DNA from: Amblyomma americanum
Taxonomy: Eukaryota; Arthropoda; Arachnida; Ixodida; Ixodidae
DNA: 64,000 bases
NCBI RefSeq assembly: GCF_052857255.1
Contig: NC_135500.1
Coordinates: 52,415,272-52,479,271, forward strand
Reading direction: 5' to 3'
How positions within the stretch are numbered: the first letter of the stretch is position 1; each line of letters opens with the position of its first letter. This document shows positions 16,391 through 49,463 of this stretch, in pieces. A program made the position numbers and the translations under genes. The notes under the pieces are model-generated. The model did not search any database. It saw nothing but the letters and a program-made list of their open reading frames with translations, and was not told where the DNA came from.

Positions 16391-16572
16391 TCATGCCTCT
16401 CTTAGGCACAGTAGCAGCGCAAAAAACACACACAAAAGAACTAGACACCAAGAGACACGCACAGACGCTGCGTGTCTAGTTCTCCTATTGTGTGTGTTTT
16501 TTGCGCTGCTACTGTACCTAAGACACGTAACGAACTCGCCCAAAAGCTCGTTTTACTGAATCATGCCTCTCT
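16391..16572 (+). mobile_element. palindromic mini-element 1 with 12-bp TSD
   Basis: A 158-bp insert (16403-16560) is flanked by the exact 12-bp duplication tcatgcctctct (16391-16402 and 16561-16572). It consists of an inverted repeat (left arm 16403-16448, right arm 16472-16520, a few mismatches) enclosing a short loop, followed by a ~40-bp tail containing CGAACTCGCCC. The tail relates it to the PLE 3' terminus at 4874-4889 and to the three other palindromic inserts. No coding capacity. It lies in intron 3 of the MULE/SWIM gene. Confidence 0.88.
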
Positions 16573-17258
16573 GTTGCCAACAGCAGCAACAGCCTGCACA
16601 TGCCGACTGGCATGCTGCCTCTTAGCCACCATGATTCTGTAGCGTAAAGTAGGTTTATGAATAATATGTTAGTACTGCTACTTTTTTCACAATACATCTG
16701 GGACACACGGCACTTCTCACTTTTGCTTCTTACATTTCAGCCACATATGCATCAAGGAACTTGGCTCATTTTAAATGGGAGGAAGTTTAACGAAGCCGGC
16801 CGTGCTGATATCTTTGACGAGCATCAGGTTCTCTCTTCGCATAGAACAAGATTAAGACAAGCCCACCGGTAGGCCAACAGCAGCCTTTAAGCAAAGAATT
16901 GTTTTTTGTGTTTGCTTTAGGACCCTTTTGAAGCCCTCATAGAAGCCTTTCTACCCCTGAAGGCTGAAGTTGGAAATGACCCGACATGCATAAGCATATA
17001 GCCAGACTGGCAAAAAAACTGAAAAGCCTTCCAAGCAAGCAAAGCTTTGTCACGGCAATGATAAACATGTCAGCTGCAGTCTGCAGGGTTTCAAGGTGCC
17101 GAGGCAAAATAAGTGTGCAGCCAACAAGCATCTCAAGGAGGCGACCTGGCCTGAACAAAGGTTTAAAACGTGTCCCCCCGGGCAGGCCATCAAAGAAGGC
17201 TAAGCGCAGTCACTCGCTGTGCCGCAGTGTGGAGGATAACGTCCCAGCTGCAAAGTGA

Positions 17259-20209
17259 CTGTGGACTGCTGCGTCAGCGTGAGTGTGCCTCCGAGTGCAA
17301 ATGGCAGAATCATGCAGTGCCAACAAAGGGTCACTCACCTTGAAACAATCATTCACAGTCTGGGCAAGCCGGCTAGCCCAGACTGCCCACTGGTGTAATA
17401 GGAGTAGGGGACATGTGCGCGTTGATACGTCACCCTAATCGATTGCATGCTACTGCGAGCAGTGATTTTTTAAAATGATTTCTAAATTATAGGGTCCACG
17501 CAGAGCTTTCAAAGTTGACTCGAATACCCACAAAGACCACCTCTGCAGATCTGCTGCACTAGAATATGACCATTGAAATCATTTCAGGGCCCTTTCAGCA
17601 CCACCAAGCTGGCCTCCCAAAGAGATCAGTTGTTGGCTCATCCCTCCCCCCCCCCCCCCCCCCATTGAGCAAACTGCATATGCACAAGACATGAACGATA
17701 ACACGACAAGTTACAAGAAAAGCAAACATGCCTTGCACAATTGGAGTTCGACGGAATTTCGAGATCGACGGAAGACTGGCACTGCATTTTTGTAAAGTAT
17801 TTTATTTTTATTTTATACTCATTTCACAAGATGAGACACTACTTTGCGTGCATTTTTTTTTCAAAATGGTTGTTTAAAAACTGCCTGTGTTATTATTCCG
17901 CTACATTTGGCAGACTTTGCTTTGTTGGTTGCCCTCTGGGTGCTGTTGGCTTGGAAGATGGCCGCGTCCACGGCAGAAAATGCGTTCACTTAAAATTTTT
18001 CTGCAGATTGCTTGCCTGCAACTTCACAGCTTTCCAGCAGTGATTTTTAGCAGTTGCGGTGTAGTTTACCTTTGTAATATGACGAGGCGTTCCCTCTTAA
18101 TGTGTGAAATCAACCTCCGAATATGCATTCGTTCTACACGCAGTTCATTGCATGGATTTTGGGCATCTCGGAAGGCCTTGTGATTTAAACGGCACAGGCA
18201 GCCACTGCCCTCGAGGTGCTGTTGTCGAGGTGGAAAAGTTTTGGTTTTGCTAGATTGTCAGGACGTGCTCAAGTGCCTAGCATGTGCACTGTGGTGAGAT
18301 ATTGGTGCCGACTTCAAACTGCCGAAGAACCGCAAGGTGCTTTGGTTACCTTGTACTGAAGAACGTGCTCTTAGGCTGAGTCACATTTTTGCTGTGCTAT
18401 GGGCACACGGTACGCAATGTAAGCCTGTTCTGGCTGTTTATACCCAATCTATATTCCTGTATGCTACTCGACATTTTTGCCTTTCAGTAAAAAAGTCTAA
18501 ATGAGGCCTATCGCATATGCCCCTTCCTATTGTTGTTTTTCTAACACTGGCATACTACGCGTTCGACCAAATAAATATTAGTGTACCAGCCTTACTTCAA
18601 GCAAGTTAGCACACACTGGATTCTCGTGAAGTGCTCATTCCTCGAGAACGTTATTGACATTTCGTAACGAAGCTATAAAATGTACTGATAGCAAAAACAT
18701 TCCATATTAAAAGGCATATGGGGTACTCATACAAGCTATCATCTAAAAATCTGTGGCTATCCCATCTTTCAGTAGAGCCACAAGTTATAGGAAACACACA
18801 GAACAGTGCAATATTTGAGCAATGCGAGCTCAAAATTAAAAAAGTTTAGCTCATAACAGCATGAACAGCTGGTGACAAATGCCATAACAGGAGGACTGAC
18901 ATCTCCAGGTGTGAGTTTCAGGTAGTGTAGAGTCCGCTAACGGGTGTGTTCAGAGTACATTTAAGAGCTAAGAAGTTACATTATATTTCAATTCCTAATA
19001 GGCAACCTGTGCTGAAGTCTGCTGCGTCGATTGCGGTGCTACAACACAGCCTAGCAAGAAGAGCATGCATTTTATGGGTGCACCCAAGGTGCTTTTCCAT
19101 GCCACCTGCCTGCTTTTATACGCATAAGCATGTGTGCTCTGTCTAAGCCACGCGTGATGTGTGTCAGCTAAGTGGGGTACGATGATGGCACCTAGGCAAG
19201 GGATGTTATCAGCCAAATGTACACACTTATAATCATTCCTAATGTGGTGTTGCATTTGGCGCTGCCAACGCAGCTGGCAGCAGCAGTTTTTAGATGCACA
19301 TTTGAACAGTACATATTTTTTTCACGGGAGGCATTATCTTACAGGGAAGATGTGAGAACTCGTCTGCCACCCAGAAAAATTGTTTGAAAACAAACGCACA
19401 TTGGTGACATGGGCGTGACCAAATTCTACAAGGCGCCAGCTGCACCTGTGAAGTGAAAAGAACCACCGTGCGTTGCTTGTGCATGTCGATAACGTGAACT
19501 GCACTAGAACAGTAGAAGCTGGAGGTTTGTTTTCAGCCTGTGAAGCTCGAGGAGTTGAGATGCGAATGTGCAGAGCGGCCATGTGAAACAGGCAGATTAC
19601 AATGCTGCCTGGGCACTGCAGGTTGCCTATGAACACAAAAGTTACAAATGTTTAATCCTGAATGCACCCATTTCAATTGTTTGTCAATGCACCTTACAAC
19701 TCTCAAGTCAGCTCTGAAAGTAAACTATTGAAGTCGCTTAACTTTCTATTTTCATAAAGCAGCTAAAATTTTAAGAATATTTATAGTATAATTATTTGAA
19801 AGGATTCCTGAGCAATATTAATTAAAAGTAGGATTCGATTTTTACGCACCATAGCAGCATCATGTAGAGTGCTTCACAGTTTTAAGCTTTGTGCTCAGCA
19901 CTGTAATACACTACTTCGTAGTGGTGCGAGTAGCTTCTTTATACAGTCATTGCTATATGGACATTAAGTTAAGTATTCTCCTGTTAATACTTTTGCTCTT
20001 CTATGTTCACTTTCTCTGTCATGTGTTCCTTGCCATGTTCATTTCATTCATCTCATTGAATGAAACTTAAACAAATGTTAATGGACCTCTCTGGTAATGC
20101 AGCAGCAAAGCCATTTGTTGGACAAACCCGGTTACAGGTTTAATTTAACAGTACATCTTTCTTGGCTTAAAAACCAAACATTTTGACAGATTTGCCTGTC
20201 TAGGAGGCA
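17259..20209. other. no recognised gene, about 3 kb
   Basis: Downstream of the MULE/SWIM stop codon. It holds an 18-base C run at 17646-17663 and a small perfect hairpin at 17356-17385 (10-bp stem), otherwise A/T-rich sequence with only short frames. The frame around 17741-18183 carries no motif I can name. Confidence 0.4.
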
Positions 20210-20466
20210 GTAAACGAAAAAAAGTCGCCATTGACTACTCCCCACAGTGCGACAACGTGAATAACATCCTTAACCGCCCCCCTCCTCCCCCTCCCATGTC
20301 TTTCGCATCACAGCTTTCGTTCCTTTGACCCCCTCCTCCCCTCCATACTTAAAGACGCTAGCTACTGCCCTCAGTCTCCCTTGATGAAGGAGCCGAGCCG
20401 GCTTCGAAACGTTGGGCTAAAATTAAAGATTTTGGTTGGAGATGTACAGTTTATAATAAGTCTTCC
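20210..20466 (+). mobile_element. PLE terminal-region (pLTR-like) fragment with hammerhead-like motif
   Basis: A C/T-rich block (20270-20350) is followed by TTGATGA (20381-20387), one extra A, a 7-bp stem GGAGCCG/CGGCTTC closing the triloop AGC, then GAAAC (20406-20410). This has the order of a hammerhead ribozyme core (CUGANGA, stem II, GAAA), and PLE terminal repeats are known to carry hammerheads. However, the invariant C of CUGANGA is U here and there is an extra A, so activity is doubtful. It adjoins a PLE 3' end in opposite orientation. Confidence 0.4.
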
Positions 20467-20840
20467 GGGGCTAGTTCGCGGAGGATTGTCTAACAAAAGG
20501 CTAAAACAGCACTGAATTTAACACATCCCACAGAAAGACGGACAGGACGGGTGTTAACTCCAGCTGTGTTTATTGAAGGCCACATGTACCAAATATATAG
20601 CCCGAACAAGGTTAAACATGCACATTTACCATATAGCAAAAAAAGAAATTAAAAACCCCACACAGACTGAAGCTATCCATTATTGAGTATATTTAAAAAA
20701 TCTATGTTCACTTGATCGCAGGGAGATGGAATTGCTGCTTACGCACTTGTCAACTTTCTCTTTGATAAAGATGGCTCCAGCTAGTTCGTGAGCTAATCTA
20801 TCCTTAATTCCAGCTAGAATAGTGATGACTATAAATTTCC
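20467..20840 (-). mobile_element. Penelope-like element 3' end fragment
   Basis: On the reverse strand the frame from 20833 contains ELAGAIFIK..KCVS..SISL and ends in a stop near 20680. This resembles the PLE C-terminus after the GIY-YIG domain (compare TREIEEAFNI..CGSIPSIAL in the fragment at 4340). The 3' region contains an aataaa and ends with the tail CGAACTAGCCCC (reverse strand of 20467-20478), the terminus shared with the palindromic mini-elements. Confidence 0.6.
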
Positions 20841-21765
20841 AATAAGGAAGGGCACCAGGCAAGGAGACACGATCTCGCCAATGCTATTTACCGCCTGTTC
20901 GCAGGAGGTATTCCGAGCCATGAATTGGGAACGGTTGGGAATAAGAGTAAATGGAGAATACCTAAATAATCTGCGATTCGCAGATCACATTGCCTTGCTA
21001 AGTCACTCAGGAGGTGAACTGCCAGTCATGATCAATAAGTTAGACAGTCAGAGCAGAACGCTAGGTCTAAAAATTAACATGCTGAAAATCAAGATAATGC
21101 TCAACAGTCTAGCAAGGGAACAGTACTTAACAATTGAGAGTGAAAGCCTGGAAGTTGTAAAGGAATACGTGTACATAGGGCAGGTAGTGACAGCTGATCC
21201 GTATCATGAGAGTGAGATAACTATTAGGATAAGAATGGGGTGGAGCGCATATGGCAGGTTCTCTCAGATCATGAGGGGCAGTTAACCAATTTCCCTCAAG
21301 AGAAAAGTGTACAACAGCTGTATCTTACCGGTACTAACCTACGGGGCAGAAACGTGGAGGCTAACGAAAAGAGTTCAGCTTAAGGACGCCGCAGCGAGCC
21401 ATGGAAAGAAAAATGATAGGTGTAATGTTAAGAGACCGCAAGCGGGAAGAGTGGGTGAGGGAACAAACGCGGGTTAAGGACATCCTAGTCGAAATCAAGA
21501 GGAAAAAATGGGCTTGGGCAGGGCATATAATACGAAGGCAAGATAACCGCTGGTCCTTAAGGGTAACGGAGTGGATTCCAAGGGAAAGTAAGCGTAGCGG
21601 GGGGGGGGGGCAAAAGGTTAGATGGGCGGATGAGATTAAGAAGTTTTCAGGCAAAGGGTGGGTGCAGCTGGCAAAGGACAGGTTTAATTGGAGAGACATG
21701 GGAGAGGCCTTTGCCCTGCAGTGGGTGCAGTTAGGCTGATGATGGTCGTGATGATGAGAATAGTG
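20841..21765 (+). mobile_element. RTE-like LINE 3' half, degenerate
   Basis: RT C-terminal half of an RTE/BovB-like non-LTR element. Before the first ATG the frame reads KGTRQGDTISP, the conserved RT motif, so the element begins upstream of 20881. LRFADHIALLS follows; the catalytic pair is FADH rather than FADD. Then come GLKINMLKIK and EYVYIGQVVT. A TAA at 21283-21285 interrupts, but the same frame continues with KRKVYNSCILPVLTYGAETW. A frameshift near 21400 leads into 21401-21739, holding the typical C-terminus (WAWAGHIIRR, QKVRWADEIK). The 3' tail is a gatgatg-type repeat at 21736-21760, usual for RTE. A 12-G run at 21599-21610 lies in the coding part. Confidence 0.85.
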
Positions 21766-21769
21766 ATCT

Positions 21770-22196
21770 CCCCAAATTTTGGTTGTTTTTTCCATTTTTA
21801 TCAATGCAAGAGCGGCAATGGGCAGGTAGGTTTTCGAAAGAATATGATGCGTTCCCTAACGACCTTTTGTGTTCCCCAGCAGGCTCGTTTACGCAGCGTC
21901 CAGTCTGGCCGACGTACACCTTGCCACATGTAAGGAGGATCTCGTAGACTACTCCTGTGGCACACCTTATGTAGGGCATCGAGTGTTTCTTTCCACAGCC
22001 GAATGTTTCTTTAGCACCGCTGCTAATCTTGAGGCACATCTTGACCATTTTGCAGTCGGCGGAGAAGACCGTAGGAACTCCGTACTTGTTGCCAACTCAT
22101 TTTAGATTGTAGGACACCTTGTGAATATATGGTATCACCACTGGTTTGGCTTTGCCGAAATCTTCTTCCCGGCACTGCCTCTTCGCCCTACTCTTA
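21770..22196 (-). mobile_element. Penelope-like GIY-YIG fragment
   Basis: Reverse-strand PLE piece. From about 22190 the frame contains VVIPYIHKVSYNLK, then a TGA, then CATGVVYEILLTCGKVYVGQTGRC, which gives the GIY (GVVYEI) and YIG (VYVGQTG) halves of the nuclease. The preceding PYIH.VS.NLK block matches the linker in the PLE at 59409-59846, so the family is the same or close. RT and C-terminus are missing. Confidence 0.82.
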
Positions 22197-22722
22197 GTTT
22201 CTGCAGGTCCCCGCAGGGGGGCGTCTGCAGCTTGCAGGAAGAAAACGTTTTATGATAAGTCAAAAGGCAGTGCCCTCCTCTTTGAAGCTAGGTCAGGGTG
22301 TCTTAGAACGCGCAGCTACAAAAAGAAATTTAACGAAGAAGACACATGTTTTGTGTGTGGTAAATCTGTAGAAACAATAGAACACCTCATCCTAAAATGT
22401 GATGGTATCCATCCCGATGTCGATGCCGGCACAGTCACTCTTCCTGAGGCCTTAGTGTTCAGAGATAACAATAGTCATGTAAATAAATCTGCGGTGGAAA
22501 TTAGCAAAAAGCGATTGGAGGATTGGTGGCACAAAAGCAGAGAGGTGACACAAGTTTTAAAGTGTAGGAAGACGTATTTTAAAGAAAATGGCGAATTTCA
22601 TTAACAACTTACAGCAGAGTTAAACAAAAATAAAGGGAAAAAACAGAGCATAGTGGCAACAACCACTGCCCCGTTTCAAAGGGTACGCTCCTACCTTCCA
22701 TCCATCCATCCATCCATCGATT
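22197..22722 (+). mobile_element. LINE C-terminal fragment with Cys-His finger and (CATC)n tail
   Basis: The frame to 22604 contains LFEARSGCLRTRSYKKKF and CFVCGKSVETIEHLILKC, a C-x2-C-x7-H-x4-C finger found at the very end of several LINE ORF2 proteins. A short A-rich 3' region and a ccatccatccatc run (about 22700-22720) follow. Everything upstream of the finger is lost. Clade not determined. Confidence 0.68.
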
Positions 22723-23234
22723 ATGAGTGGCGACACCACGGGTTCCCGAGCATCCGCAGGGACATCCCCTCAAGGGGATGATGGTGAACAGTGCATCACC
22801 ACGGACACGAGCACCCGCGCCTAGCCGTGCGTGGCATCGCCGTGTCCGGGGAAAAGGGGATCCTGGTGGCTGAGCCGATGCCGAGAATTTGTACCTTTAA
22901 GGCCCCTCGGCGGAGGCAACACACCACTTTGGCCCCAGCTTCCTGTAGACGGCACCTCCGGCCTGACCCGACCGGGGGAAATCGGCAGTCGTCTTTTCCT
23001 TATCCTCCCCTCCATCTTTTACTTTCCTATCATCTTTCTTACAACTCTCCTGTCTCCTCCTCCTTCCTTGGTTTTTCCTTTTTTCCTGGCGGCTAGGGTT
23101 AGCCCTGTGTGGCGAACTATCCTGGGTTTCGTCATATTCGGTTATAGCAATGGTGTACAGCTGGCGTGGGCAGGTCTTGTTTTCAAGTTCCTGTCCTGTC
23201 CCCTAGTTGGGCTCCGTGATGGGTGGCTGGCTCC

Positions 23235-24447
23235 ATGACCGAAAAACTAAATATTTTATGGCTCCCCCTTTTCCAAACCTGATCGCTCTCTAAAAAGAGG
23301 GCGGGACGAAGCAGATTTTTTCTCTAAAAAGAAACAAACATTTTCAAAGTTTCATGCTATCCACAGTGAATTTGAACAAAAGCGAGCCCGAATAATATCG
23401 CCATATCTTGTGTCCAAACGCTTAACAGATGCCTTGAGCCCTGGTTACAAGGTATCAAAAATGACCAGCGGCGACCTACTCCTTGAATTGCGTGAGAGCA
23501 TCCAGTGCTCTAAGCTCTCAAGCATTGATTTGATAGGGGACATCCCTGTCTCCGTGACTCCCCACCGATCCCTTAACACAGTCCGAGGCGTTATCTCAGA
23601 AAGTGACTTCATCCATTTAACAGAAGCCGAAATGATTCAAGGGCTCACCGACAAGAATGTGATTGACGTTCACCAAATCAAATTCCGCAAGGATAATAAA
23701 GAAATAGACACCAAACACACGGTCCTCACATTTAACACCAGCACTTTGCCCGAAACGATCCAAGTTGGATATTTGAAAGTCAATGTCACACAATATATAG
23801 CCAATCCCCACCGATGTTTCAACTGTCAAAAGTTTGGCCACGGCTCACAGACTTGCCGCGGCTGCAAATCCTGCGCGAAATGCGCCTCGAAGAACAACCA
23901 TATATATCAGCAACGCCAACACAAAAAGGAAGAAGAAGGAGAAGATAGTACAGAGCGCTGAGCTCTGTACTATCTTCTCCTTCTTCTTCTTTTTTGTGTT
24001 CGCGCTGCTGATATTTATGGATCGCAACCAGCTTGCCCGGCAGATGGTGTTATTCAAGAACCACCGTTCTGAGGGATGTGACGCAGCACTCCGCTGCGCA
24101 AACTGCGAATGAGACCCCGCTGCGTACTCCAGGGCGTGTCCGTCCTGGAGAAAAGAAAAAGAAACCATCACCATAAATACCAAAGCAAACATTTCATTTA
24201 AAGAAGCAAGGAGGGGTTTTGCGCTTACCAGCACATTCTCTTTCACAGCAAAACCAAATTTCGCTGATGTGGTGCGCAGGGGCGTAGCACCACAGAGCAC
24301 TCCGCGGCACCTTCCGAGGCCACTTCCACCGAGCCAATGGCATAGCCCTCCACGCGAAGGCTGCTCTGCCACCATCAAAGCAGGGAGCGCCGGTCCATGG
24401 GTCGGCATCCCGCAGGACATCCCCCTTCCGAGGGAGGCTTGAAACTA
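23235..24447 (+). pseudogene. I-type LINE ORF1 (gag-like, CCHC knuckles), interrupted
   Basis: ORF1 proteins of I-group LINEs bind element RNA. The likely start is ATG 23235. An early frame change moves the reading to the frame open from 23254 (PDRSLKRGRDEAD) on to 23890. The knuckle CFNCQKFGHGSQTC is clear and is followed by CKSCAKCASKNN. A 156-bp palindromic insert then breaks the gene between knuckles. Coding resumes around 24065 with SEGCDAALRCANCE and runs on in another frame to a stop near 24447 (FADVVRRGV, then IPQDIPLPREG). The position between two zinc knuckles and the near-exact TSD show the insertion came after the LINE. Confidence 0.78.
23890..24065 (+). mobile_element. palindromic mini-element 2 inside LINE gag
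   Basis: Insert 23900-24055 is flanked by aagaacaacc (23890-23899) and aagaaccacc (24056-24065), a 10-bp target-site duplication with one mismatch. Arms 23902-23955 and 23963-24017 form a near-perfect hairpin rich in GAA/TTC, with the loop at cgctgag. A ~38-bp tail contains CAACCAGCTTGCCC. Its closest relative is the element at 34621-34889, which shares the same arm ends (atatcagc) and tail. Confidence 0.9.
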
Positions 24448-24624
24448 ACACAACCACGGCTTCTCCGCGGCCCTCCAGCACCTTTGTTGAGGTGATGGGT
24501 ACAACCCCCACTCCGCCTCTTTTACAGAGGCGGAACAGCCCACTCGAGCGAAAACAAGACAGGCCTCTCATAACGGGTCCAGAACATAAGTAAACCTCAT
24601 ATCGTTCCACCCCAAAAGATAAAC

Positions 24625-25330
24625 ATGGCTTTTTTTTAGTTCAGTGGAACTGTAGAGGCCGGTGGAAGAATCACAGTAACATAACAGATATTTTAGGGTC
24701 AATGTTTCCCGTAGCCTTATGTCTTCAGGAAACCAATCTAGGTCCACAACATATGAATATCCTGAAACATTACGAAACTTTTATACGCGATCGCGAGCAG
24801 GCTAATAGACTCTCAGGAGGCGTCGCGATTGTCGTTCGAAGCGGCGTCCCTGCTCGAGAAATCAAAATCAAAATAAAACTTGAAGCCGCTGCGGTCACCA
24901 TCATCAGCTACAAAACAATTACTATCTGTTCTGTATATATTCTTCCACATTTTACATTAACGGTTCATGATCTACAAGAACTCATTCATGAGCATCCACA
25001 ACCATATTAAGTAGTTGGTGATTTTAACGCTCACTACCCTTTTTGGGGAAGCGAGCGCTGTAACTCTAAGGGAAAAATAATCGAAGATTTTATCCTTACA
25101 AGTAATATATGTCTTTTAAATGCGGAAAAGGCCACATACTGCTCCCCTACCTCGGGGAAAATAACCTGTTTAGATTTCTCATTTACTTCTCCTTCAGTTT
25201 TTAACGATTTTAAATGGGATGACATTGACAACCCATACGGTAGCGATCACCTCCCTATACTAATCAGTTTGATGTGTCCACCGGAAATAATTCCCACAAA
25301 ACAGCGACGCTGGAAGCTGCATCTTTAGAC
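24625..25330 (+). pseudogene. I-type LINE ORF2: APE endonuclease domain
   Basis: Target-nicking endonuclease of the LINE. Visible motifs are FSGTVE/VQWNCRG-type start, CLQETNL (catalytic Glu), VVGDFNAHYPFWG and the terminal YGSDHLPI (Asp-His). A stop interrupts near 24633, another at 25008-25010 just before VVGDFNAH, and another near 25328. Coding lies about 180 bp after ORF1, as expected for a two-ORF LINE. Confidence 0.82.
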
Positions 25331-25879
25331 TGGGAACTTTCTAGAGCAAAAGCCACTTTACAAAATATAGATTTAGAAGACCTGACCATCGATCAGATGA
25401 ACGAAAAGCACCAATTTTATCGTAACGGCTGCAGAATTAGCTATTCCGCAGTCTTCTGGAGTGGTGCGGCAAAACCACAAAGTGTAGTGGACAAAAGACT
25501 GCAAGGAAGCAAAAAAAAAACAGCAAAATTAGAGCTTGGGGTAAATTTCGCAGGTATCCGACACATAAAAATCTCGTATATTTTAAAAAGGCAAGAGCTA
25601 AATCTCGGTACATCCGTCGCATTGCCGAGAAAGCTTCATGGAAGAGTTATGTTTCATCTTTAAACAGTCAAATCACGTATAAAAAATGTGGGAGCAGGTT
25701 CGAAAATTAACCAACAAATTCTCACCGCTCACAATTACTCTTCTAACAACCCCTGGCACAGAAACAAGCATAAGGGAACCGGCAGACATTTTGGGTGAAC
25801 ACTTCGCTGGAGTTTCCAGTTCATCGCAATATACGCAGTCATTTATAAAACACAAAAATGTAACCAAAAACGAAGACTT

Positions 25880-29837: not shown

Positions 29838-30161
29838 AATAATAATAATAATTGGTTTTTGGGTAAAGGAAATGGCGCAGTATCTGTCTCATATATCGTT
29901 GGACACCTGAACCGCGCCGTAAGGGAAGGGATAATGGAGGGAGTGAAAGAGGAAAGGAAGAAGAAGGTGCCGTAGTGGAGGGCTCCGGAATAATTTCGAC
30001 CACCTGGGGATCTTTAACGTGCACTGAGATCGCACAGCACACGGGCGCCTTAGCGTTTTTTCCTCCATAAAAACGCAGCCGCCGCGGTCGGGTTCGAACC
30101 CGGGAACTCCGGATCAGTAGTCGAGCGCCCTAACCACTGAGCCACCGCGGCGGGTGTATAC
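29838..30161 (-). mobile_element. full-length Ruka-like SINE with 9-bp TSD
   Basis: The most complete Ruka-like copy. It has a tRNA-like head with box A (gtggctcagtggttagggc on the reverse strand) and box B (gggttcgaaccc), then the body, pyrimidine-rich segment and ATT-rich tail. It is flanked by gtcacattt at 29829-29837 and 30162-30170. Together with the surrounding fragments it forms a LINE > SINE > SINE nest. Confidence 0.93.
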
Positions 30162-34612: not shown

Positions 34613-34897
34613 TTCAACTCCATATGTATCAGCATCGCGAATAAAAAACCAGGAAGAAGAAGGAGAAGATAGTACAGAGTGCTTTCTGGTTTTGTGTTCC
34701 TTTTTCCCGATTTTGTGTTTTCTTCTTCCTGGTTTTGTGTTCTTTCCTCTTCCTGGTTTTGTGTTCCTTCTTCTTCCTGGTTTTGTGTTCCTTCTTCTTC
34801 CTGGTTTTGTGTTCCTTCTTCTTCCTGGTTTTGTGTTCGCGCTGCTGATACTTATGGGTAGCAACCAACTAGCCCGGCAGATGGTGCTGTTTAACTC
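34613..34897 (+). mobile_element. palindromic mini-element 3 with expanded 24-bp repeat
   Basis: Insert 34621-34889 lies between ttcaactc (34613-34620) and tttaactc (34890-34897), a target-site duplication with one mismatch. Left end catatgtatcagc and right end gctgctgatacttatg pair, and the tail contains CCAACTAGCCC. It is a sister of the insert at 23900, but the right arm has expanded to about six units of a ~24-bp repeat (ctggttttgtgttccttcttc type, 34684-34840). Only one unit, in reverse complement, remains in the left arm. Long frames here on both strands are artefacts of the repeat. Confidence 0.87.
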
Positions 34898-36719: not shown

Positions 36720-37023
36720 TAATAATAATAATAATAATTGGTTTTTGGGGAAGGAAATGGCGCAGTGTCTGTCTCATATATCGTTGGACACCTGAACCGC
36801 GCCGTAAGGTTAGAAATAAAGGAGGGAGTGAAAGTAGAAAGGAAGAGGTGCCGTAGTGGAGGGCTCCGTAATAATTTTGACCACCTGGGGATAATTCACG
36901 TGAACTGACATCGTACAGCACACAGGCGCCTTAGCGTTTTGCCTCCATAAAAACGCAGCCGCCGCGGTCGGGTTCTAACCCAGGAACTACGAGCGCTCTA
37001 ACCACTGAGCCACCGCGGCGGGG
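36720..37023 (-). mobile_element. Ruka-like SINE, near full length
   Basis: Reverse-strand copy with ATT tail (36720-36738), body and tRNA-like head ending at the ccaccgcggcgg block near 37020. A ~10-base deletion removes part of the head (ctacgagcgctctaacc). It lies about 150 bp left of the LTR element. No clear target-site duplication. Confidence 0.88.
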
Positions 37024-37172
37024 TACAAATACGTTTTTTGGACGACTGTGTTGTTCGACGTACCAAACCACGCTTGTTTATGCCGCAGGATGTTCACCAG
37101 AGGCTCTTCCACCCCCACCCCCCTTCTCGCTGACGCCGCCTCTGCACAGGCGCACTGCCCCGTGGCTGCTAC

Positions 37173-39270: not shown

Positions 39271-39284
39271 GCTGTTGGAACCTT

Positions 39285-39504
39285 ACATGCATGACTTGGT
39301 AGTGAACGGGAAGTCATGTAAGGTGCTGCGCGACTCAGCCGCAACGATGGATGTTGTCCATCCGTCGTATGTGTCACCATTTGATTACACAGGCCAATGT
39401 GCATTGATCCGACAGGTAGTGGAGGAACAAAGCGTGTGCTTGCCCATAGCGACAGTGGTAATTGAGGGCCCTTCCCGTACGCTTACAATCAAAGCCGCCA
39501 TTTA
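39285..39504 (+). pseudogene. aspartic protease region of the LTR element
   Basis: The frame 39122-39505 continues past the knuckle into DLVVNGKSCKVLRDSAATMDVV. The LRDSAA motif takes the position of the retropepsin D-T/S-G active site, with Ala replacing Gly. This DSA form may be normal for the family. The frame ends at a stop at 39503. Confidence 0.65.
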
Positions 39505-39939
39505 AGGAAAGCTAAATGCTATCTATATAGGTTCTCCAACAAAACGCACGTGTTATTTCTAGAGAAGGTCATCCATTTTGGTGACCGAGTTGTGCAGTCC
39601 TTAACACGTTCGAAAGCGCGAGAACTTGCAACGCAGCTTACTTCTGAGTATTCCACTGCGGAGGAAACAGCAGTTAAACTTGGGGAATAAATGGATGAAC
39701 AAGGGTCACAAAATCCCGCAAACGAGGCACCCGAGACCGGTCAGCCTGGGAGTAAGCATGACGAACCGCGAAACGAGGAAATCCTAGATAGTGGCTTTTT
39801 GCCGCCAGTGTCAAGCAGTTTCACGATGCTCCTATGGGCGAACCGAGAAGAGCTACGTATGGAACAAGCAAATGACCTGACCATACAGGAGATGAGAAAG
39901 CTCCACAGAACGAGTGAGGGATAAAAACCGAATATTGCG

Positions 39940-41035
39940 TTCCAGTTGAGAGGCGGTGTGCTTTATCGCTTATACAAGGATAAGCGTGGAGTGGAGCGAG
40001 ACCAATTAGTCGTCCGCCAGAAGTACCGACAAGACTTACTGCGACTTTCCCAAGGCAATTCGTGGTCATACTACCTGGAAAAAAGGACAAATAAGCAGAC
40101 TTTTGCAAGAGTACTATTGGCCTGGTTGTTTTAAGGACATGAAGCGTTTTGTAAGGCCGTGCGACACATGCCAGCTGGACGGAAAGGCGCGAGATGAGTG
40201 GAAAGCACCGAGAGTTTTAGTACCGATCATTACTGAGCCGTTTCACCGGTCGGTGATAGATGTAGTTGGGCATCTTCTCGTGACAGAGTCAGGGTGTCGT
40301 TATATCCTCCCCCTGCCACAAAGTTTCCAAGGGCTGTTGCGCTGCGCGCGGTGACACCACACAGTGTTGTGAATTCACTGTTATCAGTCTTCACCTGAGT
40401 TGGATTCTCTTCTGAGATCTAAAGTGATCAGAGTAGTGTATTCACTAGTGCCCTTACCACCTCATTTATAGAGCGGTGCGGCACTAAGATAGTGCACAGC
40501 TCAATGCATCATCTGTAGAGCAACAGCGTAGAAAGGTGGCATTCTGTTCTAAAGCGCGTACTTAGGGAATGCGCTGCGAAAAGAATCGCGACTAGGACTC
40601 ATGCCTACCTGGGGACTTTTCGATTTGCGGTCAGTGCCGCATGAATCCACGGAATTTAGCCCCGCCGAGTTGGTGTACGAAAGGTCACTGCGCACACCTC
40701 TGCTAATGGTACGCAAGCCTGGGAGGGGCGCGGAGAGGACCCGGCGGTAGTAGAGTTCGTGTTGACTCTGCTGGATCGTCTACATAACGCTACATAATTC
40801 GTGGTGGCCACCATGAAATCAGCCCAGCTCGTTCTAAGGTCTACTATGATCGGGCAGCCCACCAAGGGACATTTTGTAACGGTGACAAGGTAATGTTTGT
40901 GAGAGCTTCAAGGCAGAATAGGCTCCAAGTACAGTGGGAAGGACCTGCTAAAGTAGTTTCCAAGCTTTCTAACACCAACTACGTGGTGAAAACCCCTGGA
41001 AGGCGTAAAGAATTGCGCATTTAGCATTGTAACCT
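39940..41035 (+). pseudogene. integrase of the LTR element, located before RT
   Basis: Integrase inserts the cDNA into the genome. Zinc-binding half: GGVLYRLYKDKRGVERDQLVV, RQDLLRLSQGNSWS, then (frame changed) WPGCFKDMKRFVRPCDTCQ. Catalytic core: SVIDVVGHLL (first Asp), SDQSSVFTSAL (Asp codon 40426-40428) and SNSVERWHSV (Glu codon 40531-40533), 34 codons apart including one TAG. Then comes FAVSAA and a PAELVYGRS-like block, and a C-terminal region (QVQWEGPAKVV, NYVVKTPGRRKELRI) to about 41025. It joins the RT without an intervening LTR. Confidence 0.8.
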
Positions 41036-41159
41036 AATGAAGCCTTCTGTGCAGACAGAGGCCGCGGTAAATCTAACCTTGAACTTTCCTGAGGAGATTG
41101 AATTAAGACAACCTTATCATTCTAAGCAGAAAGGAAAGCAGCGCGCAGGAACTACTCAC

Positions 41160-42050
41160 GAGGACTGAGCGGAGAGGAGAACTAAAAGAATCTCAGTTGT
41201 CTGATCTCGGCGAGCTGATAGCAGAGTTTGATGACTGCTTCGTAGGCAGGCCGGACAGAACTGATTTGATTGAGCATGATATTGAGCTAACTTCCAAGGA
41301 CCCAGTGCGGTCAATGTGCTATCGACTCTCTCCAAGGCAGATATATATCCTTGATAGGGAGGTAAATCGCACGCTGGAATTAGGAGTAATCAAGCACTCC
41401 GAAAGCGAATACGCTTCGCCTATGATCTTGGTGGAAGATCCGGGTAAAGGCCCAAGGTCTGTAGATTAGTGGAAGTTAAATGCTTTCACCAAGGATTAAG
41501 TGTACCTTATTCCCAATATCGAGGAGAGAGTGGAACAGGTCAGTCGAGCAGCCTATGTAACTACGCTAGACCTTACACGAGGGTACTGGCAAGTGCCGCT
41601 CACTGAGCGCGCCTGCAGATTCTCAGCTTTCGTCACTCCAACGAGAAGCTATCAACCAACAATCAAAAGCTTCGTGGTCAGAAATGCTCCATTTTGTTTT
41701 TGCCGTCTAATGAATAGGGTTTTATAGGGCTGTGAAGAATTTGCGGTGCCCTACTTGGACTACATTTCTGTCTTCTCACATTCATAGGTTAACCATTTAT
41801 TGCATCTGAAAGCAGTGCTGAGCCGTTTGCGTCAAGCTGGGCTCAGTGTAAAGGCCGAGAAGTGTTGCCTTGCGGGGGGCGACCGTAGACTATTTGGGTC
41901 ACAACGTAGGCCAATGTTTCAGGAAACCCAGTAAGGTTAAGATATCGGCTGTTGCAGACTTCCCGCGGCCTAGAATAAGGACGGCCATTCGGGCATTCTT
42001 AGGGCTCACGAAATAATATAATCACTACATCTGTGGTTTTTCCTCTTTGG
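41160..42050 (+). pseudogene. reverse transcriptase of the LTR element
   Basis: It begins LSDLGELIAEFDDCFVGRP, IEHDIELTSKDPVRS and continues with YASPMILVEDPGKGPRSVD. A stop follows at 41467-41469 and one at 41497-41499. Then YLIPNIEERVEQVS and TLDLTRGYWQVPL (catalytic Asp), and PYLDYISVFS, where YLDD is changed to YLDY. Further stops and a frameshift after 41870 lead to RNase H. Confidence 0.85.
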
Positions 42051-42547
42051 CAAGCCCCCTGACCGATGCTCTCCGCAGGACAAAGCCGACAAATGTAGTC
42101 TGGGAAGCGTCCTTCTTAAACCTGAAGGCGGTACTGATTAGCTGCCCTGTTTTGGGAGCTCCGGATTGCGACCGAGAATTCATGGTCCAGTGTGATGCGA
42201 GGGATCGAGGACCACGTGCCGTTCTCTGCCAGAGGGATGACGACAGCAACGAAGATCCCGTCCTCTGCCTGCGACGAAAACTGAGCTCTGGAAAGATGGC
42301 GTACTGTGCGTCTGAAAAAGACTACGCTTGCATTGTTACGGCTATCCAGAAACTACAATGCCATCTCGGAAGCGCCAAATTCATCGTAAAGACGGACCGT
42401 TGTCTCCTTTCCTGGCTGCAAACCACGACATCAAAGAACCATCGCCTTCTGAGGTGTAGCTTGATTCTGCAGCAGTATCATTTCGGCATAAAGTACAAGA
42501 AGGGCAAATTGAATGAAAACGCGGACGCACTTAGCCGTTCTTTCTAA
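42047..42547 (+). pseudogene. RNase H of the LTR element
   Basis: A 166-codon open frame: LTDALRRTKPTNVVWE, FMVQCDARDRG (Asp), KMAYCASEKDYACI (Glu), FIVKTDRCLLSWL (Asp) and KGKLNENADALSRSF at the end, typical of Ty3/gypsy RNase H. It is the last domain before the 3' LTR. In conventional Ty3/gypsy elements integrase would follow here; instead 42548-42937 is non-coding and contains a purine-rich stretch (agcagggaaggaag) just before the LTR, a candidate polypurine tract. Confidence 0.85.
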
Positions 42548-42937
42548 ACAGTCCGGGGTGCTCTTCAGGTATCCAAAATTACTTCTTAAGTTTTTTATTT
42601 TGTGCGTTTATGTGTGCGAATGTGTGTAGTAGCATGTTTGGTTTTCTCAGCATTTGGGGCTTTGATGGTTTTCAGTGTGGGCTTTTCTCCAACAGCTATA
42701 GTAACCAGGTTTTATAGCAATCCCTCTTTTGAACTGGTTTTCTTGGAGGGGAGTGGAGTGCTTCCTTGGGCATGTGTTTGAGGTTTCAAAGACGCCTCAA
42801 AGGTTCTGGTCAACGCCAACGAAGACAATGTTGAGAGCGACGAAGAAGTGTTGGTTCTTCTGCAAGCAATTAAGTAGTCTCTTCGTGCAGCAGCGGCGAC
42901 TTCCACCCGCCGAGCCTCGTCAAGCAGGGAAGGAAGC

Positions 42938-43690
42938 TTTTACGACCCTGCTGGCGACACGACGTTTGACCATCAGATGACTCCACAAAAAAAAAGGATG
43001 CCTGGCTGTGAATGTACTTGCGGAGATTTTCCCGCACATCACTCGGTGGGAATGGCCTTCCCTTTGACTGGTTCCCAGCAAGAGGGATGCTTGGCGCAGT
43101 GACCGACGATGGACAGACGACAGGCGAATAGAGGAGCGGTGCTCCAAGCAATTAACCGTGTCCGACAGGAGCCGGCCCAACTGGAGAGAGCTTGCCGCAG
43201 TTGAGTTCCTCGGCGCCCCAGCCTTAGCTGTGTTTTCGATGGACACGTGCCGCTTGCAATACGGTTGCTCTAGTGCGCGAAATAGCAGCGCACTTGCGAT
43301 TCCTCCTCGCCAGTTCCCACGGGTGGACTCTACAACGAGTGCCTCCGCTTGCTACGTGCTGTGCAAATTTCCCATCTTGGAGCAATGGGCCACGTGTAGG
43401 ATTGGCCACCGCCTGATCAGGGGCGGAACTTTAAGGATTTAAGGAGCGTAAAGAGTGAGAACGAGCGCTCTGGGCCCTGGCGACAAGGCTCATCCAGTCG
43501 CTCGACGCAGGAACTCTTGAATTATTGACTATTTGCTTTTCTTCACAATGTAAATAAGTTTCTTCAAATTGTCATTAAACCCGCTTGTTATCGTTTTCTC
43601 AAACTTCAAGTTCCTTATTTCCTCAGCCCGAAGCCTCGAACACGCTATCCAACGGAGCCCGGGTTCGAGTTAGCTCCTGCGTCCACGGCA
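42938..43690 (+). repeat. 3' LTR
   Basis: Partner of 37173-37929. It is preceded by a purine-rich tract at 42923-42936 and followed by ctac. Confidence 0.85.
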
Positions 43691-43694
43691 CTAC

Positions 43695-46600
43695 ACACGT
43701 AATCGACACGGCCAATGCACACAGCTGCACGATGGAGACTGCTTTAAAAACATGTTTCTCTGGAGCTTTGTGTCGAACCCGTCAGCAACTGCTGATCACT
43801 GCTCTTAAGGGGGTCGGGACAGTTCGGATTGCGCTGCTATCCCACCGCTGCTACCAGTTGTTGGGACTGAGGCAGCGTGATCGGGCCGGAGAATGGACGA
43901 GGAAGTCGAAGACGTGGTCACGAGGAAGAGTGAAAACTTTAGACAAATATTTACATTATGTCCAAGTTAGCAAGAATTGAGAGTGCATCTCAGTAAAAGG
44001 GAACATCTAAGTAGAAGGGAGCCTCGATGAAAGGGAGCTCCACGGCCGTATCCGACTATTCGATGCCGAGTTTTATGGTTTTTCCTTCTCTGAAATCCCT
44101 AAGTGAAAGGCGGGTCTGCCAAAGAAGGCATGTCCTAAAAACTTCACCTTGGCACTCATCACACCCTGTCTCCTTAGGGAACATGCCCACGTCACGTGAT
44201 GAGTTTGAGGGTGAGGAGCATATCATCTATGTCGCGCAGACACCGGAATTAAGGTCCGCCAGTGGCGTTGCTATGGTCTGCAGGTGGTCGCACTTGTTCT
44301 TTATCTGTGTAAGGCCGGAAGTCCAAGGCTAAGGCCCCGTGCAAGGCCACGCGGCACGCGGAGTAAGAACACCATTCGCCGGAAACTACTCCTTTGACAA
44401 CTTATGGCGCGGCCAAACACGGTGACTGGGCCCAGCTGACACCCGGGTCCTCTCTTAAAGGTGCATCACGGCTGGCCTTGACAACTATCTTCGTCGTGTA
44501 GATGAGGGTGCACTGGCACAGCTGCACTGGCTGCTTGCAAGGGGGCTTGCTCTCGCCGCTGCCGTGGCTACGCCGTCCGCGTTTTGATCCACTTAGGCTG
44601 GAGGACATCCCGGGCATAACAGAGCTCCCGCCGCCAGACCATGTGTTCGGAAGATGATCTACTCCCACGCAACTGGGCTGACTGGGCGCGCGAGAATGTG
44701 CTCTCGTTCTGCAGTCCTCCAGGCCGGTCCTCATCGGCAGGGGATGTCCAGCTCTGGGAATTTCTCAGGGAGGCGAGCCAAACAGGACACCAAACGAAAA
44801 GCCACACACGACAAAAGCAAGTGACACCTGAAACCCTCTCTTTCCGCAAGGCCAACACTAAAGCAATAGTGATTACACATAGAGATCCCTCTAAGGAAAA
44901 CCTGAAATTAAACGAAACTTCCCTGGACAAACCCGAAATGCGAACCGATTCAAGGTTCAAGGGTTCGGACCTCTTGAAAGCGTTGTCATTATGCACGACA
45001 TGATGAGACAGACGGAAAATTATTGGTCTGCAATTGGTCGGAATGGTTGAAACGATTCTCGATGTCACCTGGTCAGCGAGGATTCAACCGAGACATGAGA
45101 CCGAGGCTTTCAATTTTTCTCAAGGTATTCTTCATTCGTAACTTGCAAAGTTGACCATGCGGTATTCTTTTGCGTTCTGCATGACAGCAGACACCTGCAC
45201 TAAGTGTGAAAAATTTGCACGACAAACACAGAAGTATAAAAACTGCCGTAAATGTACAAAACTAGCACAACAAACTCTGCGGAAGTAACAACATACTGAA
45301 AAACTTAATACGAGCTCTACCCAGCTACTTAAGATAATGTCCAAGAGAGGCTTAGCTCGTGCTTCCGTATCAGCGGACACTAGCACCTAACAATTAAGCT
45401 GGTAAAGTTTGCGTACAAAAGCACAAAACAAACTTAACAAAATTAAAGCTCGAAGTAATCTTGAGTCGCCCTCGGGAGAGTCTACGCCAGATCGGCCCGC
45501 GTGTGACTTCGCTGTACTTCCGCTCGTCAGCCGACACTCACAATGCTCAGCTAAACATATGTACAAGTGCATGCTGCAAAATAATTTGCAACAAATCTTC
45601 AAACATAAGCGATGCCGTGAAAGACCAACAAAACATAACAAGGTAAACGCGCGGTTGAGACTACAGCTCACAAACCACTGTGGCTTCAGTGCTCGTTTGC
45701 GCTACACTGAACTGTTGAACACTTAGGTGACATAAAAAGCAAACAGTTTTATGTTACATCATTACGGAACGAAAAATAAGGAATACAACAATGAATGCAC
45801 TAAAGAATAAAAGATCAAAACTTCGTTTGCGCTTTTCTACAGGGGTAAATGAATAAAGAAAAAGCAGACAGTGAGTACAAGAAACACTTATTCCCGGAAA
45901 CCGACTGGAAACCGTGTTGTGATTCAAGGAATCTACTGGTCAGAAGCGCCCAACTCGGTCGCGGTCCTGCGGCCGCTCGACCAGCCGATGCTTCCTAGAA
46001 GCTGAGAGACTGACCAGTTCCTCCTCTGCGGGATATGCGTCCAAGGCCTGGGTAGCGCTTTCAAAGCTTAAGGCGAGAGGGGCGCTTCGTCTATCTAGGT
46101 TCCCTGCATGTCGTGTCCCCTTCCGCCTCGCGTGTGCTTTGCGGCATCCATGACAACTCCTGCTGTAGTCCCACAGTGACGCGGGCAGCTTTAGACCAGG
46201 CTGCGCGTGATGAGTCCGCTTGGCTTTTATTCTACGCCTGCGAAGTCATTTCCGCCTTGGTGATAATTGCCGAGTGTCACAAGAATGGCTAGTCCTCAAA
46301 ATCACAGGCTTTTTGACCCGTGCTTTTTCTTTTAGTGCGACAACGCATGATTTGGCTTCCTTCGGACGCAGCCGAGTCCGGAAAAAATTCACGGTTGATT
46401 TTTCTTTTCTGTCATCATTTCTAGCGGTGCCGTCGCGTGTTAAGCTGCCGGGCTTTGCCTCCGCATCAACAGCTGACCTAGGATTCCTCAAAGGCTTGTC
46501 GCGGTTGGAATTTTTCTTGCTTAACGAAACTACTTGCGCTTTGCTCACAGTGTCAGGCGACGGCTCTCCTGACTTTTCGTCCGCTCGTGTGGTTTCGTCT

Positions 46601-46879
46601 GAGCACCATAAGCTCATTTCCCTGTAATCTGTCACTAGCCGCTGCGATTTGACATTCTATTAGCTGTTCTTTGTTTTTATGGAACGCTGAGCCGCACCCG
46701 TCGCTTACGATCTGTCAGCTGGCGTTATCCGCGGGTCACTGTCCTTTGACCAGTGTTATGAAGGCTATTATAGGCCTTCCCGTCCGGCTCAAGTCCAGCA
46801 AAAAGGCCTTTAATTTGACAAGGCTCTGCAGAGGAGCTACAGGTGATATTTTTATTTCTAATCCTTATTGCACGTACTA
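43695..46879. other. unrecognised region, about 3.2 kb
   Basis: No domain-bearing frame. The 46220-46635 interval is open on both strands for 129-135 codons. The reverse frame is rich in Lys, Arg and Ser (SLSKKNSNRDK, EAKSCVVALKEKAR), and a second reverse stretch at 45960-46110 reads TQALDAYPAEEELVSL, so a decayed reverse-strand gene is possible but not identified. The 44568-45068 frames have no motif. Confidence 0.35.
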
Positions 46880-47125
46880 GCGTGGCGGCCGTCTTTTGAT
46901 CGAGGCGAAACGTAAAGGCGCCCGTGTGCTGTGCGAGTCAGTGCACGTTAGATTCCCCATGTGGCTGAAATTATTCCGGAGCCCTCCACTACGGCACCTC
47001 TTTCTTCCTTCCTTCTCTAACTCCCTGCTGTATCCCCTCCCTTAAGGCGAGGTTCAGGTGTCCGCTGATATGTGAGACAGATACTGCGCCATTTCCTTTT
47101 TCCAAAAAAAAAAATCAATTGTAAT
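46880..47125 (+). mobile_element. Ruka-like SINE, diverged, head truncated
   Basis: Begins in the head-body junction (gcggccgtcttttgatcgagg), has the core ggcgcccgtgtgctgtgcg and ggagccctccactacgg, and ends in an A-rich tail near 47110-47125. There are several small deletions. Confidence 0.85.
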
Positions 47126-48044
47126 TTTCATCTACTGGCTACCCAAGCTACTGTTGTAGTTGTAAGTGTTTAAAGGAAAAGTAAAAAAGAAGGTCAAAGA
47201 TTTTTTGCTAACTTCGGCATCTGCCATCACTACAGCGGTGGCACCTGAGCTGGGGCAGCGGATAAAGGATAGCAGGCAGTTTGAAGAAGTGAAATGATAG
47301 AGGTGAGGGGACAGTATAGAAAGGATAGAGGGAGAGGTGGTAAATACACCATTTATATAACAATACATTTTTACAAGTTGCGCACGTGCAGAGTTAAAAA
47401 AAATGAAAAACACGCGCGCACAACATTTTGCACACAACAGCTCGGGTGGGGCGCCCAGCTGTTAACCGTCCGATGTAGCACACGGGGAGCGTTCGGTCAC
47501 TGCGGGACACTACCTGGCGCAGAAGAGACGGGACGATTATCCAAAAATGCATTTTGCTAAATAACGTTTTCTTTTGCGGTTTGTATGTGCAGATGCCATC
47601 AAAAAATTGGAGAAAACAAATGTGCAGGTTGTACCGGCATACGTCGGCCGGCGGCTGCCCGCTGACCGGGGTAGGCGGCCATAAAAAGCGCATGGCTGAG
47701 GTGTTAGCTGGCTTGGATAGCCCCGGGGCCGGCGTTCAATGCAGCCGCTCCCTCAAACCCGGGGCCTGCTACAACAGCTGAGCCTTTGACGAGGCGGTCG
47801 AGCCCTGATGAGACCCTACTAGACTTCGCTTCCGCAGAGCCTCAACATGCCCGCCTAGACATGTGGCTCTTATTTTTTTTAATAAATGTTGAAACATTAA
47901 ACTTGCTGGTTTAATTATTTTAAGTTCCTGTAACAACAGAATGTGACATTTAGAAACTCACTTCATAGACAATATTTTGCCAAAATAAAGCATTCGTCAC
48001 AGATGTATTTGGCAGTGCAAAGCACATATTGCATAATAAGCAAT
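47126..48044. other. no recognised gene
   Basis: Short frames only. The 75-codon frame at 47554-47781 has no motif. Confidence 0.4.
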
Positions 48045-48335
48045 GTTCGGGAACGACTAATGGGACTGTAACTGAGTGTGCCAGGATACATGCGGTGAAC
48101 AACCAGCGTGTAAGCTTGAGTGGGAAATATTAGGTAGTCAGTGAGTGGTTGGATGCCTTTGGCGAACAACCAGTGAATTAGCTTGGGTGGGAAATATTCG
48201 GTACCCATTGAGTGGCAGGATGCCTGTGGCGAACAACCAGTGGATTAACTTGGGTGGCCGACATCTGGTAGCCAGTGAGTGTGCCTGAATACCTGTGGTA
48301 AACAACCAGTGCTTGGGCGGGAAATATTCGATTTC
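48045..48335. repeat. 67-bp minisatellite, about four units
   Basis: The anchor gNgaacaaccagtg (variants) starts at 48095, 48162, 48229 and 48298, giving spacings of 67, 67 and 69. Each unit also holds ttgggtgggaaatatt and a gNcagtgagtg segment. The last unit is shortened, and a partial unit precedes the first. Confidence 0.92.
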
Positions 48336-48974
48336 CTTGATGGGAACCGCAAATTCGATGGATTCAGCGCTAGTGGAGGCAATCACCTCCTTGCTGACCC
48401 CATGAATGGTGCAGACGTAGACGACCGCTGGGGGAGAATCGAACGCCTAGACCGAGATGGAGAGCAGGGTCCAAGTCAAGAAGGTGCTGCCGGGCCTCCG
48501 TCAAGACATCGGCGGAGATCAGGCTCCGGCGCCTGTTGATACGCACCTCGCAGACGACTGGCCTGCAGTAGAGGAGGGTGCTCCAGTCCTCTTAGACAGC
48601 AGCCTGGGGCGTGGCTGGTGGTCGGGTTCCTGTTTGAGCCGTGTTTTGCGGGTGGCAGGGCGGCGGTTCTTGCGGTGCACTGGCATCCCCACCTCCTGGT
48701 CCTCAGGCTCCGGGACGGAGTTGGAGGTTGGATGCTCTGAGCTGAGCCCAGGGCGAACTGGTGGGTGGCATCTGGTCATCACAGGGATCGCACTTCTGGG
48801 TGGGTAGTTGGCTGTGGGCTGGTGGGACCTCCGTAGTAGGCTTCGCGGACTGGGACTTGGCATAGGTTCCAATCATGGCGGCTGCACAAGATGGGGCCGC
48901 GACGTTTTCCGCCGGGGTCTCTGCTTGCAGGGTCATCTGTCTCACGTCCCGGTGTACAGCCGAACCTTGCTTAA
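48336..48974. other. unrecognised G/C-rich region
   Basis: Reverse frames of 80-117 codons are rich in Pro, Ser, Arg and Thr (MEPMPSPSPRSLLRRS, TRKTRLKQEPDHQPRPR). They could be a low-complexity gag-like remnant, but no knuckle or RT motif is present. Confidence 0.35.
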
Positions 48975-49200
48975 AAGTAAATAAAGAAGGTAGGAGTGAA
49001 AGAAGAAAGAGAGAAAAAGGTGCTGTAGAAGAGGGCTTCCGAATAATTTAGACCCATGAACGATCACCGACATCGCACAGCATACGGGCGCCGTTGTGTT
49101 TCGCCTCACAGGAAGCGCGGCCGCCGCGGTCGGGTTCGAACCCGGGAACTCCGGCTCAGTAGCCGAGTGCTCTAACCACTGAGCCACTGCGGCGAGGTGA
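48975..49200 (-). mobile_element. Ruka-like SINE, diverged
   Basis: Reverse-strand copy with a good tRNA-like head (box B gggttcgaaccc, box A gtggctcagtggttagagc on the reverse strand) at 49130-49197. The body is shortened and ends at the pyrimidine-rich region without an ATT tail. Confidence 0.87.
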
Positions 49201-49295
49201 AGGGCTTTGAGTTTTGGTGACATTCAGACTGGTTGTTTCCGAGAGAGATAAAATAACATATGTGAGCTACCTCTGCGATAATACGCGAAAAACAG

Positions 49296-49463
49296 TAGGT
49301 TAAAGGAAGGAGCTATACACCGCAGCGGACACGGGACAGAGAAAGAAGACGACACAGGGCGGTCTTCTTTCGTCTTCTTTCTCTGTCCCGTGTCCGCTGC
49401 GGTGTATAGCTCCTTCATGTCTCACCAACTGGCCTACACATCTACCCTCCTAGGTTAAAGGAA
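49296..49463 (+). mobile_element. palindromic mini-element 4, perfect 44-bp arms and 13-bp TSD
   Basis: The cleanest example. The exact duplication taggttaaaggaa (49296-49308 and 49451-49463) flanks a 142-bp insert. Left arm 49309-49352 and right arm 49370-49413 are perfect inverted repeats of 44 bp around a 17-base loop. The tail 49414-49450 is ttcATGTCTCACCAACTGG followed by cctacac..., closely matching the PLE 3' tail at 4871-4889 (ATGCACCAACCAGCCC). No coding capacity. Confidence 0.95.

Follow-up and report, generated by a model that had tools for sequence, protein, structure and literature searches.

A 64,000-nucleotide stretch of the genome of the tick Amblyomma americanum (assembly GCF_052857255.1, contig NC_135500.1, positions 52,415,272 to 52,479,271 of the forward strand; hereafter the window) contains four short palindromic inserts that are derived from Penelope-like elements (PLEs) and belong to a repeated class in this genome. 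The two inverted arms of these inserts are copies of the PLE leader, the sequence immediately upstream of the open reading frame (ORF), and the unpaired tail that follows them is the first ~12 codons of that ORF. The architecture of the inserts suggests that short PLE insertions are probably formed by bidirectional target-primed reverse transcription from two fixed starts ~35 nt apart.

The four inserts were read letter by letter, and their inverted repeats were confirmed by a separate scan; all were found where the preliminary description, made from the letters of the window alone, had placed them. They share the plan given there: two complementary arms, a single unpaired tail of ~35 nt and, outside these, direct repeats of 8-13 bp representing target-site duplications (TSDs), two of which are exact and two of which have one mismatch. 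All four are on the plus strand. Mini-element 1 (16403..16560) has outer arms at ~16403-16438 and 16485-16523, with an inner hairpin continuing between them, a tail at 16524-16560 with the core CGAACTCGCCC at 16531-16541, and an exact TSD of 12 bp (16391..16402 and 16561..16572). Mini-element 2 (23900..24055), which lies in a multicopy host sequence, has arms at ~23900-23956 and 23962-24020, a tail at 24021-24055, the core CCAGCTTGCCC at 24028-24038 and a 10-bp TSD with one mismatch (23890..23899 and 24056..24065). In mini-element 3 (34621..34889) the arm at 34621-34664 pairs with 34813-34857, the tail is at ~34855-34889 with the core CCAACTAGCCC at 34865-34875, and the TSD is of 8 bp with one mismatch (34613..34620 and 34890..34897). 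This insert had been taken for a plain hairpin, but in its loop (34680-34817) a ~23-bp unit similar to the right arm is repeated in tandem about six times. Mini-element 4 (49309..49450) has arms at ~49309-49352 and 49370-49413 that are 100% complementary, a tail at ~49414-49450, the core CCAACTGGCCT at 49425-49435 and an exact TSD of 13 bp (49296..49308 and 49451..49463). Mini-elements 2 and 3 belong to one PLE family.

The tail core, CCAACTNGCCC, is present at 75,435 exact sites genome-wide, as against 2,408 for the reversed pattern, a control that rules out a chance sequence. In the window alone there are 8 matches with at most one mismatch, where 3.97 are expected and 6 of 100 shuffles reach 8; an excess over chance, which the preliminary description had made a test of its proposal, is thus found across the genome but not in the window by itself.

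The core is in frame after an ATG, as M..(Y/N/H)QLAQ...LL, in most of 42 families. The arrangement is exemplified by a tandem array (locus L055, contig C5), with a unit spacing of 3,161-3,169 bp and a pseudo-long terminal repeat (pLTR) running into the ORF start, in which the core forms codons 4-8 after the ATG (M-Y-P-N-Q-L-A-Q-Q-Q-T-L-L-K) of a frame open for 820 codons from stop to stop and 801 from that ATG. The array protein (P0001) has a reverse transcriptase (RT) domain (Pfam RVT_1, E 4.6e-8). A GIY-YIG endonuclease was without a Pfam match in this protein at E up to 5, and a comparison of P0001 with solved structures gave no match; GVVY..C...YVGQTGRC..N.R..EH, spotted by eye in the translation, is presumably a GIY-YIG motif. 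In the family represented by two window copies and 20 further copies (hereafter the window family), the sequence past the tail in locus L078, MDRNQLARQMVLFKYIFCSTGPFL, resembles the array protein by eye. Since the core is in frame after an ATG and the open frame bears an RT domain, the tail corresponds to the first part of the PLE ORF and the arms to the pLTR leader before it. The core had previously been regarded as a PLE 3′ terminal motif, and the arms had been expected to match the region next to it. The arms do match a PLE, but in the leader directly upstream of the ORF and not in the 3′ terminal region, and the core is the coding start at the pLTR/ORF junction. The same applies to the core CCAACCAGCCC at 4879-4889, which was thought to close the 3′ end of a PLE and is instead where an ORF starts, at a junction between tandem PLEs (4409..4889, plus strand). 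There, the C-terminal coding part of one copy (4409-4711) is followed by a pLTR and then by the ORF start.

Synonymous forms of the core are scarce (CCAACTNGC[AGT]C, 21,347 sites against 11,269 for the control; CCAGCTNGCCC, 6,051 against 1,510), which disfavours a signal that is maintained by coding only; the Leu codon is unconstrained at its third base. Based on these counts, the core seems to be constrained at the nucleotide level in addition to coding, the Leu third base excepted, as would be expected if the coding sequence also contained a recognition or start site.

The class was sampled at 52 exact cores in 40 loci, the first listed places on contig C1, all in one 1.4-Mb stretch. The sampled cores are diverse: when the end region was compared without gaps, 42 of the 52 fell below 70% similarity. 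At 34 of the 52 sites the upstream sequence recurs in inverted orientation within 2 kb, and with a shuffled arm it does so at none. In 25 of these 34 the inverted arm has a TSD, called at a score of 8 or more, at its outer end; such a TSD was found at none of the 18 armless sites and in 6 of 136 controls with a displaced left end. A further 14 core sites in RT-bearing loci, on several contigs including C1, have no inverted arm within 2 kb, as expected of internal ORF starts or of elements longer than 2 kb. If the proportion of 34 in 52 is scaled to the excess core count, there would be ~48,000 palindromes genome-wide, a rough figure that is drawn from one stretch. The inserts are, as first proposed, a repeated class that is PLE-derived, has a shared PLE tail and is made at insertion; the accompanying idea of self-inverted copies suggests folding back, against which the single tail and the independently truncated arms argue.

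The ends of the inserts follow simple rules. In 33 of 36 curated inserts (L011, L035 and L036, which have no usable left-end match, were left out of the start statistics) the start of the tailless arm has a median position of -8 relative to CCAACT (range -18 to -2), and in 24 of the 31 inserts having an ATG it is at most 4 nt away from it. For the tailed side, measured in all 36, the median end position is +26 (range 21-38). The tail has a median length of 35 nt (range 25-46), and TSD length varies from 8 to 20 bp; insert lengths for L035 and L036 are invalid, the script having picked the wrong left TSD copy. Exactly one tail is present in 28 of 28 curated TSD-flanked palindromes, and none has two. 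These were obtained by testing 132 inverted repeats, of which 42 were TSD-flanked (displaced controls, 11 of 132) and 14 of the 42 were set aside as tandem-repeat or internal matches (nine from the tandem repeat of L058, two from the arms of L015 and one each from L022, L031 and L067). An independent and equal choice of start on each side would have given two tails in one third of the tail-bearing palindromes.

The plan holds over a wide range of sizes, from ~80 bp (L010, TSD of 8 bp) to a 5.4-kb palindrome (L057) with arms that are 99% identical; arm identities in the small palindromes are 69-95%. Among 150 scored matches of 16,638 candidates, RT neighbours less than 6 kb apart form 38 pairs, of which 27 are head-to-head, 11 are tandem and none is tail-to-tail; three of the 27, on one contig and with equal spacing, are probably one duplicated event. 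The window has a larger head-to-head inverted pair of this kind at 59366..61392 (antisense 59366-60271, sense 60490-61392; 93.8% identity over 907 aligned bases).

Comparison of the two arms of an element shows that either may be the longer, the tailless arm in L066 and L069 and the tailed arm in L071. The arms of L056 differ in content, one having ORF and pLTR parts that are absent from the other. In the window family, 11 of whose 22 copies are palindromic, the inner arm ends vary between copies, which argues that these copies were not made from one master hairpin; the inner ends are those of local alignments and may overrun at the centre. The arm subtype agrees within the element in nine of nine typed pairs, using words hand-picked after the sequences had been viewed and with the left arms of L070 and L071, two of the 11 palindromic members, left untyped. 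This finding suggests that a single RNA species probably served for both arms. Loops, measured in 30 of 34 inserts (four have no inner helix), are 0-76 nt long, and the three of zero length are all centred on the self-complementary AGCGCT.

Minis account for 21 of the 52 sampled sites, and the left end of 19 of the 21 lies between -107 and -192 from the core. Otherwise different PLE families (L008, L019, L029, L041 and others) have in common, at ~-95 to -65 from the core, the block AATAAA-(few nt)-AGTTGnnAGT-(0 to 2 nt)-AGCGC, which may be a promoter or polyadenylation region. The upstream block AGTTGnnAGT is found in none of the 21 minis and in 13 of the 31 other copies. The simplest reading of its absence is that the mini arms run close to the RNA 5′ end.

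Evidence that the minis arrived as insertions was sought by joining the flanks of each insert, with one TSD copy kept, and searching the whole genome with the product. For insert 23900 the junction is crossed in all 40 scored rows (of 799 candidates), which are 88-91% identical; of these, 39 show no net change in length. For insert 34621 it is crossed in 40 of the 41 rows listed (of 135 candidates) at 85-92% identity, 36 of the 40 being without net length change. The joined flanks of insert 49309 matched only its own flanks in the genome, with no paralogous site, and no row of the search with insert 16403 crosses the junction. Empty sites elsewhere in the genome are thus seen for two of the four inserts. 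The flanks of 16403 are found ~150-165 bases apart at 20 other places, a measure of position spacing only, which indicates that the host repeat holds something of insert length there. The host repeat of mini-element 1 seems to have multiplied after the insertion, with the insert carried inside.

In the proposed mechanism, the PLE enzyme would cut both target strands with a stagger of 8-20 bp, which would become the TSD. Both target 3′ ends would then be extended on the element RNA, one from a site A at the ATG and the other from a site B ~35 nt downstream. Each cDNA would proceed toward the RNA 5′ end, and the two cDNA 3′ ends would be joined, in some copies at AGCGCT, to give an inverted arm lacking the tail, a tailed sense arm and a TSD. 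The single tail and the independently truncated arms favour two such primings, one per side of the break, over fold-back copying. Less surely, the ~150-bp size of the minis may follow from start sites near the RNA 5′ end, where both cDNAs would soon exhaust a leader of ~60-85 nt, and starts at the downstream pLTR copy of the sites may give the pairs of kilobase size. The minis would then be dead-end by-products of internal initiation.

Several features of the scheme have counterparts in known systems. Penelope of Drosophila virilis has an extension of ~34 bp, as long as the median tail reported here, although the two are likened by length alone. In L1 twin priming, priming from each of the two sides of a break likewise produces an inversion, but the segment inverted there comes from another part of the RNA, whereas the two arms here are copies of one and the same part, begun at fixed positions. 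Closer parallels are provided by PLEs of Adineta vaga and of the anole; what follows draws on parts of the papers concerned. The Adineta vaga PLEs (Pen2a_Av and others; PMC3846280) have, as here, an inverted pLTR that runs into the first ORF codons, a one-sided tail, which there is optional and of 31 bp, a TSD (8-10 bp) and palindromes at head-to-head junctions. The same paper calls this structure typical of fruit flies and fish too; inverted pLTRs, together with short 3′ extensions, also appear in a curation guide (PMC8969392). Inverted pLTRs with an optional tail and a TSD are therefore published, and the tick inserts are not a new kind of element. The Adineta vaga copies are few and mostly ORF-bearing; by contrast, those in the tick are very many, often consist of leader arms and a tail (~150 bp) and come from dozens of families, with one tail per palindrome as a rule.

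The Poseidon element of Anolis carolinensis (PAc) was studied in vitro (PMC11167929). Both target strands were cut and extended, reverse transcription began internally, at two sites close to where the ORF starts, and the genomic tail corresponded to the interval between them; a PLE tail of 30-40 bp is given in that paper, and the later steps of insertion are described as unvalidated. A two-site start of this type, with one strand per site, would yield the product seen here, namely a tailless antisense arm, a tailed sense arm and a TSD. No link to palindromic insertions is drawn in the parts of that paper covered. PAc has a hammerhead ribozyme, and in other PLEs one is seen at the pLTR/ORF junction. 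Here, a scan of six loci (L055, L057, L025, L029, L060 and L061) gave no hammerhead at E up to 1, and the window has none at the gathering score. Nine matches to microRNA models in the same six loci are all below the gathering score and reflect the hairpins.

Among other explanations, the one closest to the data is that a single cDNA or antisense RNA folds back and copies itself. The three zero-loop AGCGCT centres would be hard to obtain by such intramolecular folding, and a self-copied arm ought to contain the tail, which is one-sided in 28 of 28 palindromes. In L066 and L069 the tailless arm also has leader sequence that is not in the tailed arm, and the arms of L056 are unequal in their ORF and pLTR parts. 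We therefore consider self-priming unlikely, even though it has been proposed from palindromic junctions (PMC3846280) and would fit the agreement of subtypes between arms and the loops of at most 8 nt in 13 of the 30 inserts measured. Copying of the minis as units from master hairpin elements, in the manner of a non-autonomous family, would account for their narrow size mode, with nearly all left ends in one interval, and for the 20 other host-repeat copies of mini 16403 that hold something equally long. The latter looks like passive carriage within a larger repeat, however, and with inner ends and centres that differ between copies of one family, and most sampled sites being as dissimilar as they are, a master copy is improbable.

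Palindromic reads are a known problem of long-read sequencing, and the pattern could in principle come from missed hairpin adapters, from two separate insertions or from later rearrangement of tandem copies. With TSDs at the outer ends, empty sites with one TSD copy for two of the four inserts, arm identities of 69-95% in the small palindromes and an orientation ratio of 27:0, this group of explanations is very improbable. Foldback or miniature inverted-repeat transposable element (MITE)-type DNA transposons, which the inverted repeats between direct repeats bring to mind, are the least probable of all, given that the unpaired tail is always on one side, that TSD length is not fixed and that the core codes for the N-terminus of an ORF with an RT domain.

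Some observations weigh against bidirectional priming from two fixed sites, which we nevertheless prefer, or narrow its basis. The priming, like sites A and B, is deduced from the junctions of the inserts, and in PAc the main start is 111-118 nt into the ORF and not at the ATG (PMC11167929). Nine of the 34 palindromic sites have no TSD scoring at least 8, and one of the 14 further core sites reached that score despite having no arm. All 52 sites lie in a single stretch of one contig and were picked by the tail core, so that tailless palindromes could be under-seen; none was present in the sequence sampled, where by our estimate only 2-3 would be expected under independent choice of starts. The set-aside of 14 of the 42 TSD-flanked rows rested on judgement. 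The frequency of loops of at most 8 nt is unexpected from independent truncation alone, to which a shared RNA 5′ end or annealing at AGCGCT has to be added. Finally, the AATAAA of the upstream block could equally be a polyadenylation mark.

Other features were noted in the window and the sampled loci. A degenerate PLE tail-like core, CGAACTAGCCC, lies on the minus strand at 20468..20478. The open frame interrupted by insert 2 has no Pfam match. Three tRNA-like matches on the minus strand (30080-30151, 36960-37019 and 49122-49193) are possibly heads of short interspersed elements and not tRNA genes. Open frames on the minus strand at 61512-63805 resemble, by eye, the pol region of a long terminal repeat retrotransposon (integrase and RT). 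In L058, a ~33-bp tandem repeat with AGCAAGGTCACGTGACC lies on both sides of a PLE inverted pair (1-620 and 4405-4801).

Miniature palindromic PLE insertions, their abundance and their link to two-site bidirectional priming were not found among the titles and abstract openings listed for the openly licensed literature. The earlier statement that PLE-derived foldback elements of this sort are undescribed thus holds, in that literature, for the miniature form, and not for the plan, which is published for larger PLEs (PMC3846280, in the parts covered). In the papers covered, the route of PLE insertion and the origin of frequent tailed inverted pairs have been left open, self-priming being the published hypothesis (PMC3846280). 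The short, readable junctions that this genome seems to hold in tens of thousands make PLE insertion testable by counting starts, two-tail cases and cDNA joins. More tentatively, a palindrome with one tail may be the normal outcome of PLE insertion, reflecting a fixed asymmetry of the complex in which priming is always at site A on one strand and at site B on the other. The minis, in their tens of thousands, might then be abortive leader-proximal products whose arms record the RNA 5′ end and which seed hairpins able to feed small-RNA pathways. Formation by bidirectional priming would also account for an extensive class of hairpin repeats liable to be mistaken for MITEs or microRNA precursors.

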